Positions 2,346 through 9,420 of a stretch of 9,420 nt of DNA are shown here, piece by piece. The notes under the pieces were generated by a model that saw nothing but the letters and a program-made list of their open reading frames with translations, was not told the origin of the DNA and made no database searches. The position numbers and the translations under genes are program-made. How positions within the stretch are numbered: position 1 is the first letter of the stretch; the number at the start of each line of letters is the position of its first letter. The DNA is from an uncultured Haloferula sp. (GTDB lineage: Bacteria > Verrucomicrobiota > Verrucomicrobiae > Verrucomicrobiales > Akkermansiaceae): the NCBI GenBank assembly GCA_946481625.1, contig CAMLOZ010000096.1, positions 1 to 9,420 on the forward strand, read 5' to 3'.

Positions 2346-4898
2346 TCAAAGCCTCGGGTCCACCGGCTCGCTTTCCATCGCCAGCACCGCCAGCACGCAT
2401 TCATGCACCTCTCTCAGGGGGCGACGGGCGACGAAGCGGGAGAGTCCCTCCAGGCCGAGGGCGAATTCGCGCTCGGCCATCGAGCGCTTGTGGCCGAGGC
2501 CGCGATCCCTCAGACGGGCGAGATGTTCGGGATGATCGTATTCCGGGCCGTAGATGATGCGCAGGTACTCGCGGCCACGGCATTTCACCGCGGGCTGGAT
2601 CAAGCCACGCGGACCCTTCGCGATGAAGTCGCGAGGCTTCACCACCATGCCTTCGCCGCCGGCAGCCGTAAGCTCCTCCCACCACCGGACGGCCATCGCC
2701 ACCGCTGCCTCGTCGGCCAAAGGAACTTCACGCCAGCGGGTAGCCTGGAAGAGATCGGGGTCGGCGACATTCAGGCGCTCCGCAAGGGTCATGTGCCAGA
2801 TGTGATCCCGCCCGGCGAAGGTCGTTCCCTCGCCTGCCAGGAAATGGAATGGCGCGAGCTTCAAGCCTTCCAGCCCTTCGACCTCCCAGCAGTAGTGCCG
2901 GTAGGCTTCGCGATAGCGATCCAGCATCGCGAGCCGGGAGGCATTGCGGTCCGACATCGACGCAAGGTTCTTCCGAGCCTCCGCCTCCAGCATTGGATTG
3001 CCAGCGACACTCACGGCGGTGGCGACAGAGGTCGCATGGGCAATGCCGGCGGCTCCCACCGCCGCATACTGCGATTGCAGCAGTTCCATCGCCTTCGCCG
3101 ACCAGGGCATCAGCTCGCAATCCAGGCAAAGCCAATCCGTCGCAAGTTCCTCCCAGAGGCCGGAGACCTCCAGTGCCGCGGCCAGACGGTCCAGCAAGGC
3201 ATGCTCGATGGACGGGTCATTGAAAAAAGGTCTGCCCGTCCGCGTATAGATGACGCCAAGGCGCTCCTGCTTCAGGCCGAACCGAGTCACGGCAAGTGCG
3301 GGATCGCGACAGACCACCGCGACGGACCGCGACCCCATGTGCTTCTCCTCGCAAATGACGGTGCCCACCTCCTGCCCCCGGAAGTAATCGAAGGCTTCCT
3401 CCGGCCGCTCCAGCCAACCGTCCTGCTTGCTGGTGCCGCAGGGCGACATGGTCGGTGGCAGATACACCAGCCAGCGCGGATCGACCGAGAAGCGGCTCAT
3501 CACCTCCAGGGCGGCGAGCACGTTCTCCTCTTTCACGGTGATCGCCGGACGCAGCGCGGTATCGATGAAGCGTTTGCCGCGGAGATCGTCGAGATCAAGA
3601 AGGCGGTCGTGCGCGAGTTGGGCATCCGGGCCGCTTTCGGGAAGCAGCGGCCGGACCGGCTCGGCGTACGTGCGCAAGGCAGGAACGGCCACTATTTCCA
3701 GCTCCGGGTAACGCAGGGCGGTCAGGGCACCGCCGAAACAACAACCGGTGTCGATGTTCACCGTGTGGTTGAGCCAACGCGGGGCGGCAAAGGGGGTGTG
3801 CCCGTACACCACCAGCGCCTTGCCGCGGTAGTCGCGGGCCCAATCGAGCCGCTCGGGCAAGCCATATTCATCGCGCTCGCCGGTGGTTTCGCCGTAGAGG
3901 CAGAACTCGCGCACCTTGCCCGAACCCCGGCCTTGCATCTCTTCCTTCAGGCCGGCGTGAGCCACTACCAGCTTGCCATCGTCAAAAACATAGTGACTCA
4001 CCAGCCCATCGAGGAACTCCGTGAGATCGCGGCGGTCGATGGGGTCCGCTTCGAGCTGTGCCACCGTTTCCGCCAGACCGTGGGTGAGCTGTACGTGCTT
4101 GCCGTTCAGCCAGCGCAGGAACTTCGTGTCGTGATTGCCCGGCACGCAGATCGCGTTGCCCGCCTTCACGGAAGCCATCGCGAGACGCAACACGTTCGGC
4201 GAGTCCGGGCCGCGGTCCACGAGATCGCCGACGAAGACGAGCCGCCGTCCCTCGGGATGCGACACGACGTGCTCGCTCGCGGAATAGCCGAGCTTCTCGA
4301 TCAAACCAAGCAACTCCTCGTAGCAACCGTGGACATCGCCAACGATGTCGAACGGACCATGGTCCTGCTTGCGGTTGTTCCAAAGCGGCTCGCGCTCGAT
4401 TCCTTCGACCGCATCGACCTCCTCCTGGCTCTTGAAGAAGACGATGGTGCGGAAGCCCTGTGTCTTCAGGTTGCGCAGCCCCTGGCGCAGCAGCGCCGAT
4501 TGACGCTTCACCACGTTCGGCCCGAAGTTCCGGTCGGCGCGCGTGGCATTGCGTTCGTGGCAAACGCTTTCCGGAATCTTGAAAACCAGTGCGGCCGGCA
4601 GGAAATGGTACTCGCGCGCCAGCGCCACCAGAGTGGCGCGTGCCGCCGCATCCACGTTGGTGGCATCCACTACCGTCAACCGGCCAAGCGCAAGGCGCTG
4701 CCGCACGATGAAATGCAAAAGCTCGAATGCCTGCGCGCTGACCGTCTGGTCGTTCTCGTCGTCGGAAACGATGCCGCGGCATGCATCCGAGGAGACGATC
4801 TCCGTGGCCTTGAAGTGCCTCCGCGCGAACGTGGACTTCCCCGACCCGGAAGGTCCGACGAGGAGAACAAGCGAGAGCTCTGGAAGGCGGAGGGTCAT
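2346..4898 (-). CDS. pnkp: Polynucleotide kinase-phosphatase-adenylyltransferase (Pnkp) of the Pnkp/Hen1 RNA-repair system
   Basis: This 850-residue, three-module enzyme prepares and seals broken RNA. The 5'-kinase module (about 1-170) has P-loop GPSGSGKST (15-23), Asp38 and Arg41 in SSDACRG, VVDATNV (76-82) and lid arginines 116, 120 and 123. The metallophosphoesterase module (about 180-410), which removes 3'-phosphate and 2',3'-cyclic ends, has GDVHG (187-191), GDLVDRG (224-230), GNHD (254-257), HAG (314-316), GHTP (366-369) and Asp383. The ligase-type nucleotidyltransferase module (about 475-850) has adenylation motif KHMGSR with nucleophile Lys519, DCEL (593-596), EGMVVKP (749-755) and the QPAVK segment (768-772) with a further lysine. 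Domain order and size match Clostridium thermocellum Pnkp, which seals only when bound to Hen1. The ATG at 4898 puts the P-loop at the family's usual position; an upstream frame to 5042 overlaps hen1 and adds unrelated sequence. It starts two bases after the hen1 stop, so translational coupling is likely. All checked catalytic residues are intact. Confidence 0.96.
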   Translation of the reverse strand: MTLRLPELSLVLLVGPSGSGKSTFARRHFKATEIVSSDACRGIVSDDENDQTVSAQAFELLHFIVRQRLALGRLTVVDATNVDAAARATLVALAREYHFLPAALVFKIPESVCHERNATRADRNFGPNVVKRQSALLRQGLRNLKTQGFRTIVFFKSQEEVDAVEGIEREPLWNNRKQDHGPFDIVGDVHGCYEELLGLIEKLGYSASEHVVSHPEGRRLVFVGDLVDRGPDSPNVLRLAMASVKAGNAICVPGNHDTKFLRWLNGKHVQLTHGLAETVAQLEADPIDRRDLTEFLDGLVSHYVFDDGKLVVAHAGLKEEMQGRGSGKVREFCLYGETTGERDEYGLPERLDWARDYRGKALVVYGHTPFAAPRWLNHTVNIDTGCCFGGALTALRYPELEIVAVPALRTYAEPVRPLLPESGPDAQLAHDRLLDLDDLRGKRFIDTALRPAITVKEENVLAALEVMSRFSVDPRWLVYLPPTMSPCGTSKQDGWLERPEEAFDYFRGQEVGTVICEEKHMGSRSVAVVCRDPALAVTRFGLKQERLGVIYTRTGRPFFNDPSIEHALLDRLAAALEVSGLWEELATDWLCLDCELMPWSAKAMELLQSQYAAVGAAGIAHATSVATAVSVAGNPMLEAEARKNLASMSDRNASRLAMLDRYREAYRHYCWEVEGLEGLKLAPFHFLAGEGTTFAGRDHIWHMTLAERLNVADPDLFQATRWREVPLADEAAVAMAVRWWEELTAAGGEGMVVKPRDFIAKGPRGLIQPAVKCRGREYLRIIYGPEYDHPEHLARLRDRGLGHKRSMAEREFALGLEGLSRFVARRPLREVHECVLAVLAMESEPVDPRL

Positions 4899-4900
4899 TT

Positions 4901-6304
4901 TCAACTGTTTCTCGCGAATACCGCCATCTGGCTCGGCGCGCCGTGTTCCGCATGCTCTTCGCCCAACGGCTCGAACGCGACGGCATAGCCGTGCGTTCCC
5001 GCGACCCGCGACGCCCAATCCCGGAACTCCGCGCGCGTCCACTCGAAGCGGTGATCCGCGTGACGCATGGCGCCGGGCTTCATCCCTTCAAAGAGCACGT
5101 TATACTCGCGGTTGGGCGTCGTCACGATGACCGTGCGCGGCGCGGCATCGGCGAAAACGACTTCCTCCAGCGAATCGAGCCGGTCGGCATCGAGGTGCTC
5201 GATGACCTCCACCAGCGCGGCGACATCGTAGCCGCGCAAGCGCGAGTCACGATAGACGAGCGAGCCGAGGAATATCTCCACCCTGCCCTGCCGCTTGAAG
5301 GGCGGAATGCGCTCCATCCTCTCGTGCGCGATTTCCAGCACGCGGCTGGAAACGTCCATCCCGATGATCTTCGGAATCTTCGTTTGATGTAGCAGGCGGC
5401 GCAGCAGTTTGCCTTCGCCGCAACCGAGATCGATGACCGAGGCGGGCTGCAAGCTCGCGATGAGATCCGCCACCCGGTCGAGACGCTGCTCGTGCAGCGA
5501 GAGCTTCTTCCCGACCTCAGGCTCCTTCGCCTCATCCACTGCTCGGGCGGCTTCTTCATCGCCCTCTCCCTCCGGCTCCGGCACAAGCCGTTCCAGCGCC
5601 TCGCGGGCCAGACGCGCCTGATACTTCAGATAGCGCCGCACGATCCAGTCCTTCTCCGGGTGATCCGTGAGCCAGCCCTCGCCCTTGGCAAGCAGCTTGT
5701 CGATCTCCTCGCGGCCGACCCAGTAGTGCTTGGCGCGATCGAGCGCCCCGATGAGCACGAAGAGATGCTTCAGCAAGACATGAAGCCGCGTGGTGGCCCG
5801 CAAGACCAGATGATGGTAGCGGCTCCCGTCCCACGACGGGAATGCGGGATCCAAGGGCAAGCGGTGCATCTCGACCGTGTAGCCGAGAGGTTCGAAAAGC
5901 CGCTTCAAGATCTCACCGTCCCCCGCCGGCACGACCGGCAGCACGACCTCGAGATCCATCGGGCGGTCCACCAACTCCGGGCGCTTGGTGCAGCGCCCGT
6001 TGAGCGCCGTGCCGTATGCCCGCGCGATCGCCACCGAAAGGAAGGACGATGCCGCATAGGGCCGGTCGTTCACGTACTGGCCGAGCGCCCATCCGCCCTG
6101 CCGCGCACCCGCGGAACGCACCATGTCGATCGGATCCACCTCGACCAGCAGCACCGCCGTACATTCGGCTTCGCCGACGACGGGATAGAACACCGTGCCC
6201 TTGCCGAACGCCAGTTCCACCTCGTGACAACGGGCCGGATGCTTGTGCAGCAAGTGGCCGAGGTCCGTGGCTTCGGGGCTACGGTTGGTGATGGATAGCA
6301 ACAA
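4901..6304 (-). CDS. hen1: 3'-terminal RNA ribose 2'-O-methyltransferase Hen1, with N-terminal Pnkp-ligase activating domain
   Basis: Bacterial Hen1 methylates the 2'-OH of the 3'-terminal ribose of cleaved RNA from S-adenosylmethionine, before Pnkp seals it, so the repaired site resists re-cleavage. The protein has 467 residues, normal for bacterial Hen1. Residues 1-240 are the conserved Hen1-N domain (DLGHLLHKHP, 14-23; YVNDRPYAASSFLSVAIAR, 77-95; KHYWVG, 192-197), which in homologues binds Pnkp and switches on ligation. An acidic linker (about 241-262) joins it to the Rossmann methyltransferase: SAM motif VIDLGCGEGKL (290-300), metal-ligand motif EVIEH (Glu366, Glu369, His370) and the RHADHRFEWTR segment (414-424), whose His415 or His418 should be the fourth Mg/Mn ligand. 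The start is TTG at 6304: a stop lies in frame at 6317-6319, no ATG or GTG lies between, and translation from here gives the family N-terminus MLLSIT. No Shine-Dalgarno is visible. The gene lies 66 bases after the SNF2 gene and ends two bases before pnkp. Confidence 0.95.
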   Translation of the reverse strand: MLLSITNRSPEATDLGHLLHKHPARCHEVELAFGKGTVFYPVVGEAECTAVLLVEVDPIDMVRSAGARQGGWALGQYVNDRPYAASSFLSVAIARAYGTALNGRCTKRPELVDRPMDLEVVLPVVPAGDGEILKRLFEPLGYTVEMHRLPLDPAFPSWDGSRYHHLVLRATTRLHVLLKHLFVLIGALDRAKHYWVGREEIDKLLAKGEGWLTDHPEKDWIVRRYLKYQARLAREALERLVPEPEGEGDEEAARAVDEAKEPEVGKKLSLHEQRLDRVADLIASLQPASVIDLGCGEGKLLRRLLHQTKIPKIIGMDVSSRVLEIAHERMERIPPFKRQGRVEIFLGSLVYRDSRLRGYDVAALVEVIEHLDADRLDSLEEVVFADAAPRTVIVTTPNREYNVLFEGMKPGAMRHADHRFEWTRAEFRDWASRVAGTHGYAVAFEPLGEEHAEHGAPSQMAVFARNS

Positions 6305-6370: not shown

Positions 6371-9300
6371 TCATCCCAGCGGACCCAGCAGATGCGAAAG
6401 CGTCTCGGCATCGATCTTGAGCTTCGAGGTGTCCTCCGAGAGCAGCGCCTCCACCAGCGCGGACTTGTGCTTCTGCAATTCCAGGATGCGCTCCTCGATG
6501 CTGCCGCGGCAGACGAGCTTGTGAACGAAAACCGGCTTGGTCTGTCCGATGCGGTGAGCGCGGTCCGTCGCCTGGTTCTCCGCGGCGGGATTCCACCAGG
6601 GATCGTAGTGGATCACCGTGTCGGCGGCTGTTAGATTGAGACCGGTGCCGCCGGCCTTGAGCGAGATCAGGAACACGGGAACTTCTCCGGTTTGGAATTC
6701 CTTCACCAGCACGGCGCGGTCCTTTGTCTGGCCGGTGAGCTTGAGATGCCGGATCTTCTCCTTCTCCAGATGCTCCTGGATGAGCGCGAGCATCGAGGTG
6801 AATTGTGAAAAGATCAGGATGCGCCGACCTTCTTCCAGCAGGGTCGGCAGCAGTTCCCCGGTGAGGTAGTCGAGCTTCGCGGAGTCCGTCACCTTCCGTG
6901 CGGCGGGGGTCTTGAGAAGCTGCGGGTGGCAGCAGATCTGCCGCAGCTTCAAGAGCGCATCGAGCACGATGATGTGCGATTTCGCCAAGCCCTTCTCCGC
7001 GATGGCCTCGCGCACGCGCTTGTCCATCGAGGCCCGCACGGACTCGTAGAGATCCGTCTGCTTCTTGCTGAGATCGATGCCGTGGATGATCTCCGTCTTC
7101 GCCGGCAGCTCCTTCGCCACCTGATCTTTCGTACGTCGCAGGATCAGCGGCGCGACCCGCCGGTTCAGCGCGAGTTGGGCATCGTGCGAACGGTCGCGCT
7201 CGATCGGTTTGCGGAACTGCGTGTTGAAGGTCTTCTCGTCCGCGAGGAAGCCGGGCATCAGGAAACGCATCAGGCTCCACAGCTCCCCGAGGTGATTCTC
7301 GATGGGCGTGCCGGAGAGGCAGATGCGGTGCGCGGACTTCAGCTTGCAGGCGCTCTGCGCGGTGAGCGCCTTCGGGTTTTTGACGTGCTGCGCCTCATCG
7401 AGGACGATCGTGTGCCATTCCCGCTTCGACAGCTCGTCGAAGTCGCGCACCAGCAGGGGGTACGACGTGAAGACCACTTCAGCTCCGGCGATCTTGTCAT
7501 AGTCTCCGCCCCGTTTCGCACCGTGCAAGACGAGCGTCTTCAGCCCCGGCACGAATTTCTCCGCCTCCGCGGCCCAGTTCGGCACCACCGAGGTAGGTGC
7601 CACGACCAGCGACGGCCCGCCCTGCTCCGAGGCATGCTGCGCCGCGAGATGAGCCAGCGTCTGCAAGGTCTTCCCCAGCCCCATGTCATCCGCCAGGATC
7701 CCGTGCAGGCCATGCGAGGAGAGGAACTGCAACCAGCGGAAGCCCTCCTCCTGATAGTGCCGCAGGCTCGCCTTCACCCCGGCCGGGATCTCCACCGCCG
7801 GCAGCTCCCGGATGTCCTTCAGCCCCTTCCCGAGCCGCGCCAGCGCCCGCGTGGTCTCGGAGGAGTCGATCGCCAGTGAATCCGCCACGCCCGCCGCCGC
7901 CAGACGGTCCATACGCAGCGGCCCCTCTCCCGATCGGCCGAGGAAGAGATGCCTCACCTGGTCCACGATCTCCATCAATTGCCGCGCCGGGAAGCGCAGG
8001 AATCCATCCTCTTCTTTCTCGGCGGGCAGGAGGATGAACTCCGGCAGATCGGGTGAATCGGCAGGCGGGAAATTCCGCGCGATCGCACTCGCGATCACCG
8101 GGATCAGGCTGATGCGCTGGCCATCGATCTCATAGGTGACATCGAAGCGGAACCAGTCGATCCCGTGATCCGTCTCCGCCTCGATCGCCGGCACGAATTC
8201 CGTGACGTCCCTCAAGCTCAGCCCGCACTCCGGATCGACCTCGATCCGCCAGCCCTCGCCACGCAGCGCTTCGACCGCAGGCGAATCCAAAAGGTCGATC
8301 CAGTCCATCTCCGGCATCGTCGTCCGCTCCGCCGGAATATAGGAGCGGTGTGCCGCCGAGTCCGGCGGCCCCATCGGGTAAGTTTTCACGGCAGGGACCA
8401 ATCCGGCCCGCACGAGTCGCGTCGCCGCCGCCCGTTCCGCCCTCGCATCGCGCGGCCAGATGACCCGCTTCCCGTCCTTCAATACCGAATGCTGCGCCAC
8501 CGCGTGCTTGCCCATCGGCGGCATCTTCGGGCTATCGGCGTATTGGAAGCTCAGTTCGCCGACAATCGTTTCGATTTCGTGCCAGTAGTTCGCCAGTGTC
8601 CGGAGCCGCACGTGCAGACATGGCACCGGCGCGACGGCCGCGCGGGTCTCGGTCGGGATCTCGACAGGCGTGGGCAGAGTGGCCCCGGGGAGTGCTGAGA
8701 ATCGCTCCACCAGCGACGGCAGGTTCTCCGCGCGAACCACCGGACCGCGTGTCCACGCGGACAGGACGGCGGAAGGCAGCGTGCTCTCCACCGGGCCGAT
8801 CAATGCCGCCCCCGTGTCGAGGTACCGCGGCGGCACGGTGGCCAGCAGGCGCAATTCGCCGCGTAGCCCGCGCAGCACCGGCCGGGCGCTCCCATCGGGC
8901 AGGGTTTCCCACACCGCCTCCACCTTCTCCGCCGGCCCCCCGCTCAGCACCCGGTAGCCGGAAGAGCCCCGTCCGTCGTGGCTTTGCTTCCCGAAAAACA
9001 GACGGCCGGTCGCCAGTGCCCCGTCCAAAAGTTCATCCCAATCCGGACCATCCAGGGCCATGGTCCCCCAGCCGCCATGCTTCCTGAGCCGCTGGTGGTA
9101 GAGGGAACTCAAGATGATGTCCTCCCGCGCCATGTACTTCGGCGGGCGCGAGGGGTCGGCGCTCGCTTGGTTCGGCTGGATCCTCACCGTCCCGTCCTTG
9201 AGCCGGTTTGCCACCCTCATCGCGAACTGGAACCTCGAGCGGGGCGCCGCCCCCGTCTCTTCGATGCAATAGGCGAGGAACTTGCCATCGCTTCCCGGCT

Positions 9301-9420
9301 TGCCGGCGCTCGCCACCGGATTCGCCGTGCTCCGCGCGACCGTTTCGATCTCGTGCAACCAGGCACGGAGCGCATGGTCGGCCACCGTACCCGGCTGGCC
9401 CAAGAAGAACCCGCCACCTG
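6371..9420 (-). CDS. SNF2/SWI2-family DEAD-like helicase/ATPase, N-terminus outside window
   Basis: This is an ATP-dependent duplex-translocating motor of helicase superfamily 2. Numbering from the TTG at 9403, the C-terminal half carries the two RecA lobes: motif I ADDMGLGKTLQT (571-582), a VAPTS segment (601-605), motif II DEAQ (669-672), motif III SGTPIEN (697-703), RILIFSQF (861-868), motif V SLKAGGTGLNLT (914-925) and motif VI QATDRAHRIGQ (944-954). The DEAQ box and the long spacing are typical of bacterial SNF2 proteins. The first 540 residues have no motif I recognise, but resemble the accessory region of large bacterial SNF2 proteins. The frame is open past 9403 to the window edge (upstream codons read GGGFFL), so the TTG is probably internal. 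Bacterial relatives of this size often begin with a SWIM zinc finger, which would lie outside. It stops 66 bases before hen1, same strand. Roles in relatives include transcription recycling and DNA repair; a link to RNA repair is only positional. Confidence 0.93.
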   Translation of the reverse strand, partial: GGGFFLGQPGTVADHALRAWLHEIETVARSTANPVASAGKPGSDGKFLAYCIEETGAAPRSRFQFAMRVANRLKDGTVRIQPNQASADPSRPPKYMAREDIILSSLYHQRLRKHGGWGTMALDGPDWDELLDGALATGRLFFGKQSHDGRGSSGYRVLSGGPAEKVEAVWETLPDGSARPVLRGLRGELRLLATVPPRYLDTGAALIGPVESTLPSAVLSAWTRGPVVRAENLPSLVERFSALPGATLPTPVEIPTETRAAVAPVPCLHVRLRTLANYWHEIETIVGELSFQYADSPKMPPMGKHAVAQHSVLKDGKRVIWPRDARAERAAATRLVRAGLVPAVKTYPMGPPDSAAHRSYIPAERTTMPEMDWIDLLDSPAVEALRGEGWRIEVDPECGLSLRDVTEFVPAIEAETDHGIDWFRFDVTYEIDGQRISLIPVIASAIARNFPPADSPDLPEFILLPAEKEEDGFLRFPARQLMEIVDQVRHLFLGRSGEGPLRMDRLAAAGVADSLAIDSSETTRALARLGKGLKDIRELPAVEIPAGVKASLRHYQEEGFRWLQFLSSHGLHGILADDMGLGKTLQTLAHLAAQHASEQGGPSLVVAPTSVVPNWAAEAEKFVPGLKTLVLHGAKRGGDYDKIAGAEVVFTSYPLLVRDFDELSKREWHTIVLDEAQHVKNPKALTAQSACKLKSAHRICLSGTPIENHLGELWSLMRFLMPGFLADEKTFNTQFRKPIERDRSHDAQLALNRRVAPLILRRTKDQVAKELPAKTEIIHGIDLSKKQTDLYESVRASMDKRVREAIAEKGLAKSHIIVLDALLKLRQICCHPQLLKTPAARKVTDSAKLDYLTGELLPTLLEEGRRILIFSQFTSMLALIQEHLEKEKIRHLKLTGQTKDRAVLVKEFQTGEVPVFLISLKAGGTGLNLTAADTVIHYDPWWNPAAENQATDRAHRIGQTKPVFVHKLVCRGSIEERILELQKHKSALVEALLSEDTSKLKIDAETLSHLLGPLG

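Follow-up and report, generated by a model that had tools for sequence, protein, structure and literature searches.

This locus raises the question of whether two adjacent genes encode a complete system for repairing and marking cleaved RNA, and, if so, in which lineage and against what kind of damage. An earlier note, based on the letters of the window (the whole stretch of 9,420 nucleotides analyzed here), described the genes as an intact Pnkp/Hen1 RNA-repair cassette in a probable member of the Verrucomicrobiota. Both lie on the minus strand, as open reading frames at the coordinates first proposed: hen1 (4901..6304, TTG start) encodes a predicted 3'-terminal RNA ribose 2'-O-methyltransferase of 467 amino acids, and pnkp (2346..4898, ATG start) a predicted three-domain polynucleotide kinase-phosphatase-ligase of 850 amino acids. 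The hen1 stop codon (4903-4901), two bases (4899..4900, minus strand), and the pnkp ATG can be read straight from the letters, confirming the adjacency and the 2-base gap. The mechanically called pnkp frame begins further upstream, at a GTG (5042) within hen1; ATG 4898 corresponds to residue 1 of the Pnkp family model. For hen1 the start can only be TTG 6304 or TTG 6301, because an in-frame TAG lies a few codons upstream; TTG 6304 aligns to residue 1 of the solved Hen1 N-terminal domain.

The hen1 product scores 636 bits against the NCBIfam model for bacterial Hen1 (TIGR04074; cut-off 340, residues 2-464), and the pnkp product 1340 bits against that for bacterial Pnkp (TIGR04075; cut-off 750, residues 1-850). 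Hen1 consists of an N-terminal Hen1_L domain (residues 1-240; 5585..6304, minus strand; PF12623, 3.7e-101; PDB 4dqz, 2.4e-71), followed by a methyltransferase domain (residues 274-431 matched; 5012..5485, minus strand; PF13489, 9.4e-10) that aligns with 3jwi, 3jwg, and 3jwh. The single Pnkp chain carries, in order and on the same strand, a 5'-OH kinase domain (residues 10-133; 4500..4871; PF13671, AAA_33, 1.1e-29; 4gp6), a 3'-end phosphatase domain (residues 182-368; 3795..4355; PF00149, Metallophos, 4.7e-15; 4j6o, 1.3e-109), and an adenylyltransferase/ligase domain (residues 462-845; 2364..3515; PF16542, PNKP_ligase, 1.9e-172; 4drf and 3ty8). These domain and family matches are far beyond chance. 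Among the PADLOC models, none matches Pnkp, and Hen1 has a single weak methyltransferase match (mad2, 32.5 bits). In studied homologues the Hen1 N-terminal domain is the part that activates the Pnkp ligase (PMC4411300, in excerpt).

The kinase contains the P-loop GPSGSGKST and aligns with 4gp6 over the whole domain; the phosphatase retains GDVHG, GDLVDRG, GNHD, AHAG, and GHTP (alignment with 4j6o), the ligase EEKHMGSR, GGEGMVVKP, and VKCRG (alignments with 4drf and 3ty8), and the Hen1 methyltransferase the conserved blocks EVIEHLD and RHADHRFEWTR. The blocks commonly regarded as catalytic (the P-loop, the five phosphatase motifs, EEKHMGSR, and the two Hen1 blocks) are kept or differ from the solved homologues at single neighboring positions. 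Purifying selection on both genes is strong: by a Nei-Gojobori count, which is rough here as synonymous sites are near saturation, pN/pS is 0.15-0.28 across four relatives (hen1: 0.18 against G004, 0.20 against Haloferula sp. BvORR071, 0.25 against G011, and 0.28 against G010; pnkp: 0.15, 0.19, 0.23, and 0.24, respectively). The open frames, both curated cut-offs passed, the motifs, and the selection uphold the description of the cassette as complete and intact; Pfam and the solved domains bear out each of its listed modules (5'-kinase, 3'-phosphatase, adenylyltransferase, Hen1-N, and methyltransferase), and together with NCBIfam they support its identity as a Pnkp/Hen1 RNA-repair pair. The shared strand and the 2-base gap are, as a gene arrangement, what would be expected of one operon, and the two genes remain paired in the clade.

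We consider it very probable that the pair is a canonical two-gene Pnkp/Hen1 RNA-repair operon of a Luteolibacter/Haloferula-like verrucomicrobium. Its modules, motifs, gene order, and adjacency all agree with those of the bacterial Pnkp-Hen1 system, from which it differs only in host and sequence; the window thus holds an ordinary member of an already known bacterial RNA-repair system, and contributes a well-preserved case from the Verrucomicrobiota of RNA repair combined with a protective methyl mark. Bacterial pairs have been studied from Clostridium thermocellum and Anabaena. By analogy with these, a metal-independent ribotoxin would cut RNA (tRNA in vitro) to leave 5'-OH and 2',3'-cyclic phosphate ends; the Pnkp phosphatase would heal the 3' end, Hen1 would methylate its terminal 2'-OH, the kinase would phosphorylate the 5' end, and the Hen1-activated ligase would seal the two, after which the methyl group would stop the same toxin from cutting that spot again. 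We infer sealing, 2'-O-methylation, and immunity for the window pair from the studied homologues; that the attacking toxin is foreign to the host is a guess. Pnkp-Hen1 is reported from about 250 species, always as one operon, in repair "with immunity" (PMC4411300, in excerpt). The same excerpt describes the T4 Pnkp/Rnl1 tRNA-repair system, which has the heal-and-seal logic in common but a separate ligase and no methylation step (PMC4411300).

The guess of a verrucomicrobial host is borne out by the Hen1 and Pnkp trees and by the nearest Hen1 relatives, which place the host as a Luteolibacter/Haloferula-type verrucomicrobium. Among the best 120 Hen1 matches listed, the nearest is 98% identical, and those from named organisms include Luteolibacter sp. 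Populi (85%), Haloferula sp. BvORR071 (81%), and Luteolibacter luteus (77%). The best Pnkp match among the 80 stretches kept of 545 in a genome scan is that of Haloferula sp. BvORR071 (82%); the Pnkp of G004 is nearer (86%). In the phylogenies against other pairs that had been proposed as a check (84 loci; FastTree, with local support only), the window falls in a Haloferula/Luteolibacter branch of the Verrucomicrobiota. In the Pnkp tree its nearest neighbor is G004 (99), and Haloferula joins these two next (97); in the Hen1 tree it again groups with G004 (92), and these two with Haloferula and G011 (99). An 11-row clade (99-100) and an outer 13-row clade (100) are identical in both trees; some branches within the 11-row clade are open or discordant (G101 and G011). 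The other sampled Verrucomicrobiota pairs (seven named rows and two further) form a separate group (99 and 97), apart from the branch of the window; the Verrucomicrobiota label changes twice, as forced by the starred branches. The trees suggest that the phylum holds two distinct lineages of the pair, the change count being no proof of transfer, and that its two genes have for the most part moved jointly. A viral origin was considered and rejected: a viral-contig scan, using patterns drawn from the protein encoded in the window, gave two relatives (56% and 42% identical).

Pnkp is above cut-off in 16 of the 144 genomes related to Haloferula sp. BvORR071, and G006 has a pnkp copy split over two contigs, making 17 pnkp-bearing relatives in all. 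In an even sample of 384 genomes across the class, Pnkp is likewise above cut-off in 17, seven of them already in the set of 144. Among the closest relatives (G001-G015), pnkp is above cut-off or split in 11 of 15 (G001, G004, and G006-G014) and missing from G002, G003, G005, and G015; the pair is therefore dispensable. On a weakly resolved kdsD tree, from which G012 is absent (no kdsD match), the presence of the pair changes four times over 18 rows.

The remaining genes of the window are the end of a valine-pyruvate transaminase gene (1-330), a membrane protein gene (335-1249), a KpsF/GutQ-type arabinose-5-phosphate isomerase gene (1303-2280), and an SNF2 helicase gene (6371-9403 or longer, minus strand). 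The membrane protein has a GHELTH motif and appears M50-like by eye, with no Pfam or NCBIfam match; it is conserved in the kdsD-bearing regions of G001, G004, and G011. By the same rough count, pN/pS is 0.12-0.16 for kdsD and 0.11-0.26 for the membrane protein gene (three relatives each), and 0.34-0.44 for the SNF2 gene (four relatives). SNF2, a leucyl-tRNA synthetase gene (identified by eye), or both lie upstream of hen1 in 10 of 11 pair-bearing regions; G009 has neither. In L179 (G025), an RtcB-like RNA ligase gene (by eye; 4772-6259) lies upstream of hen1-pnkp. The SNF2 protein of the window is 71% identical to those of G010 and G012 and 79% identical to partial matches in G006 and G007.

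The position of this helicase, 66 bp upstream of hen1 on the same strand, might suggest that it is part of the system, within a larger defense island of the DpdE or Zorya kind; it also scores 677 bits against the PADLOC DpdE model, and in eight relatives the full-length or longest SNF2 match lies on the pnkp contig, within about 5.3 kb. We nevertheless regard this as very unlikely and have rejected SNF2 as a partner. The protein falls far below the NCBIfam cut-offs (50.7 of 500 bits for DpdE, 259 of 1500 for ZorD), and the window holds no further Dpd or Zor gene. Further mechanically called frames separate SNF2 from hen1 in seven of the eight relatives' regions, L171 being the exception, and the two occur separately: G008, G009, and G013 have the pair but no full-length match to this SNF2, while G005 has the SNF2 but no pair. 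Between the window and G004, the SNF2 gene shows an identity of only 65% whereas the surrounding genes reach 85-92%, which points to a history other than that of its neighbors, as if it had been replaced. More remote still, to the point of being negligible, is the reading of the pair as the three-protein Pnkp1-Rnl-Hen1 system, which shares Hen1 and the same four activities with the family of the window pair (PMC4411300, in excerpt). In the window, kinase, phosphatase, and ligase form one 850-amino-acid chain with hen1 adjacent, in place of a separate Pnkp1 and Rnl with hen1 elsewhere; the excerpt describes the Capnocytophaga gingivalis system as three separate proteins with a nonadjacent hen1, and its Hen1 as about 20% identical to AvaHen1 (PMC4411300). 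The Hen1 chain solved with Rnl (4xrp, inferred from its chain names to be the Hen1-Rnl complex) matches the window Hen1 at only 2e-10.

More weight attaches to the possibility, still improbable in our judgment, that the pair serves housekeeping RNA processing or repairs damage from the cell's own toxin-antitoxin systems rather than defending against competitors or phage. Its place beside leuS or SNF2 in all but one of the clade's 11 regions with the pair, the strong purifying selection on both genes, and a VapC-type toxin within the operon in three related loci would fit this reading; its patchy distribution, with the four close relatives that lack it, argues against. Colicin-like or toxin-antitoxin anticodon nucleases had been named as candidates for the natural threat. 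Three results speak against the proposed natural role: the window contains no candidate ribotoxin, a PrrC/RloC-type match (PF13166, E<=1e-30; at most seven candidates scored per genome) is absent from all 17 relatives that carry pnkp, and the pair is patchily distributed. Such matches occur in seven of the 144 relatives, all outside the pnkp bearers, and PrrC/RloC was rejected as an endogenous source of damage. A canonical repair operon remains our preferred reading.

The 2-base gap of the window is the empty form of a slot that varies widely among related loci. The comparison began with 108 loci: the window, the 80 stretches kept of 545 that encode relatives, and 27 of 31 further regions (L166 and L208-L210, without pnkp, were left out). 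Four loci without hen1 in the stretch and three copies were dropped, leaving 101, and then three near-copies, leaving 98. In all 98, hen1 and pnkp lie on one strand; the gap, taken as the distance between tblastn match ends and so overestimated by a few bases (the window measures 5, where the true value is 2), is below 250 bases in 58 loci and 250 or more in 40. The large slots contain RlaP-type genes (10 loci), a P-loop kinase followed by a Thg1-like 3'-5' polymerase (six), R2K-type ATP-grasp genes (four), HEAT-repeat genes (four), a VapC-like gene (three), and two further unnamed types (two each); some hold more than one class and 12 of the 40 none of these, all assigned by phmmer with representatives from the slots themselves, which leans the counts towards the slot. 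Pfam confirms one representative each for kinase, Thg1, RlaP, R2K, HEAT, PIN, and DUF2947, and has no match for a second VapC, the antitoxin-like protein, or the type found in L078. In the flanks of the 101 loci, which total about 1.09 Mb compared with 0.06 Mb for the slots, the representatives gave seven RlaP, two R2K, and one other match; those for kinase, Thg1, HEAT, and VapC had no match there. In Haloferula sp. BvORR071 and G004 (L001 and L169), close relatives of the window, Hen1 is extended at its C terminus by a DUF2947 domain (PF11163) that the Hen1 of the window lacks; in L169, one of the 12 classless slots, this extended Hen1 is all that was found.

The kinase-Thg1 slots (L001, at 6798-8004, L009, L026, L076, L165, and L171) come, where named, from Verrucomicrobiota, Planctomycetota, and Cyanobacteriota. 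Thg1 occurs in six of the 144 relatives: inside the slot in G001, G006, and G012, and, again with the kinase alongside, in G119, G127, and G132, which have no pnkp above cut-off. The kinase-Thg1 pair therefore also lives alone, and with only three of six occurrences in the slot, Thg1 was rejected as a partner in the clade of the window. Bacterial neighborhoods of kinase-Thg1 and RNA ligase have been reported (PMC2904730, in excerpt), and the Pfam text itself describes RlaP as an RNA repair pathway family. The links of RlaP and kinase-Thg1 to hen1-pnkp are thus already described; the same families lie between hen1 and pnkp in related loci, whereas the window, with its 2-base gap, has neither. 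A speculative proposal, which we think improbable, is that the gap is a cargo slot that fits one repair core to different kinds of damage. The window would then be the bare core; RlaP and kinase-Thg1 would serve ends that have lost nucleotides, ATP-grasp and HEAT proteins other tasks, and VapBC, in at least two lineages, would place toxin and repair in one operon. Close species of the lineage differ in slot content (empty, kinase-Thg1, VapBC, or DUF2947 fusion), and this natural series offers a way to ask what the core gains from its accessory genes, and whether toxin and repair can be combined in one unit. The main survey of RNA-repair operons is said to be that of Burroughs and Aravind in 2016.

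VapB-VapC-type pairs, with antitoxins named by eye, lie directly before pnkp in L164 (G010; 11922-12616), L172 (G007; 9962-10659), and L010 (4594-5243). In G007 and G010 the slot is filled by a gene for an 88-amino-acid antitoxin-like protein, with no Pfam or NCBIfam match, and one for a 143-amino-acid VapC (83 bits in both genomes against TIGR00028; cut-off 73.6). Here vapC runs into the start of pnkp, and the bases before vapB are nearly identical in the two genomes, including a CATATG...CATATG palindrome. Their closest relatives (G009, and G008/G013) have empty slots, implying two gains, one gain with several losses, or transfer. The pair in L010, whose contig belongs to the second verrucomicrobial group of Pnkp, is unlike these two and sits amid repeated pieces of the pnkp start (VapC by phmmer, 2e-20), so that the three loci appear to hold at least two unlike pairs. 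VapC relatives are common in these genomes: 14 of 23 contain them, with 44 matches in about 126 Mb (a sum of rounded sizes); by hand arithmetic about 0.02 would be expected in 0.06 Mb of slot, a figure to be read with the query coming from the slot and the slots spanning many phyla. Chance insertion is a fair reading, because toxin-antitoxin pairs are mobile. Cleavage by PIN-type VapC enzymes yields 5'-phosphate and 3'-OH ends, which the Pnkp ligase could seal without healing; this bears on testability and is not evidence. A literature search found no paper on VapC together with Pnkp/Hen1, which is no proof of novelty.

The cassette of L165 (G012:C68) looks degraded, possibly through assembly error: its hen1 is truncated, a stop codon interrupts the kinase gene in frame, and the part of pnkp that would match residues 287-497 is missing. 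The pnkp match in L058 contains one in-frame stop and the hen1 match in L078 two. In L181 (G126:C3:59004-61545) pnkp is broken into two frames near residue 655; it is whole in G105 and G123, close kin of G126.
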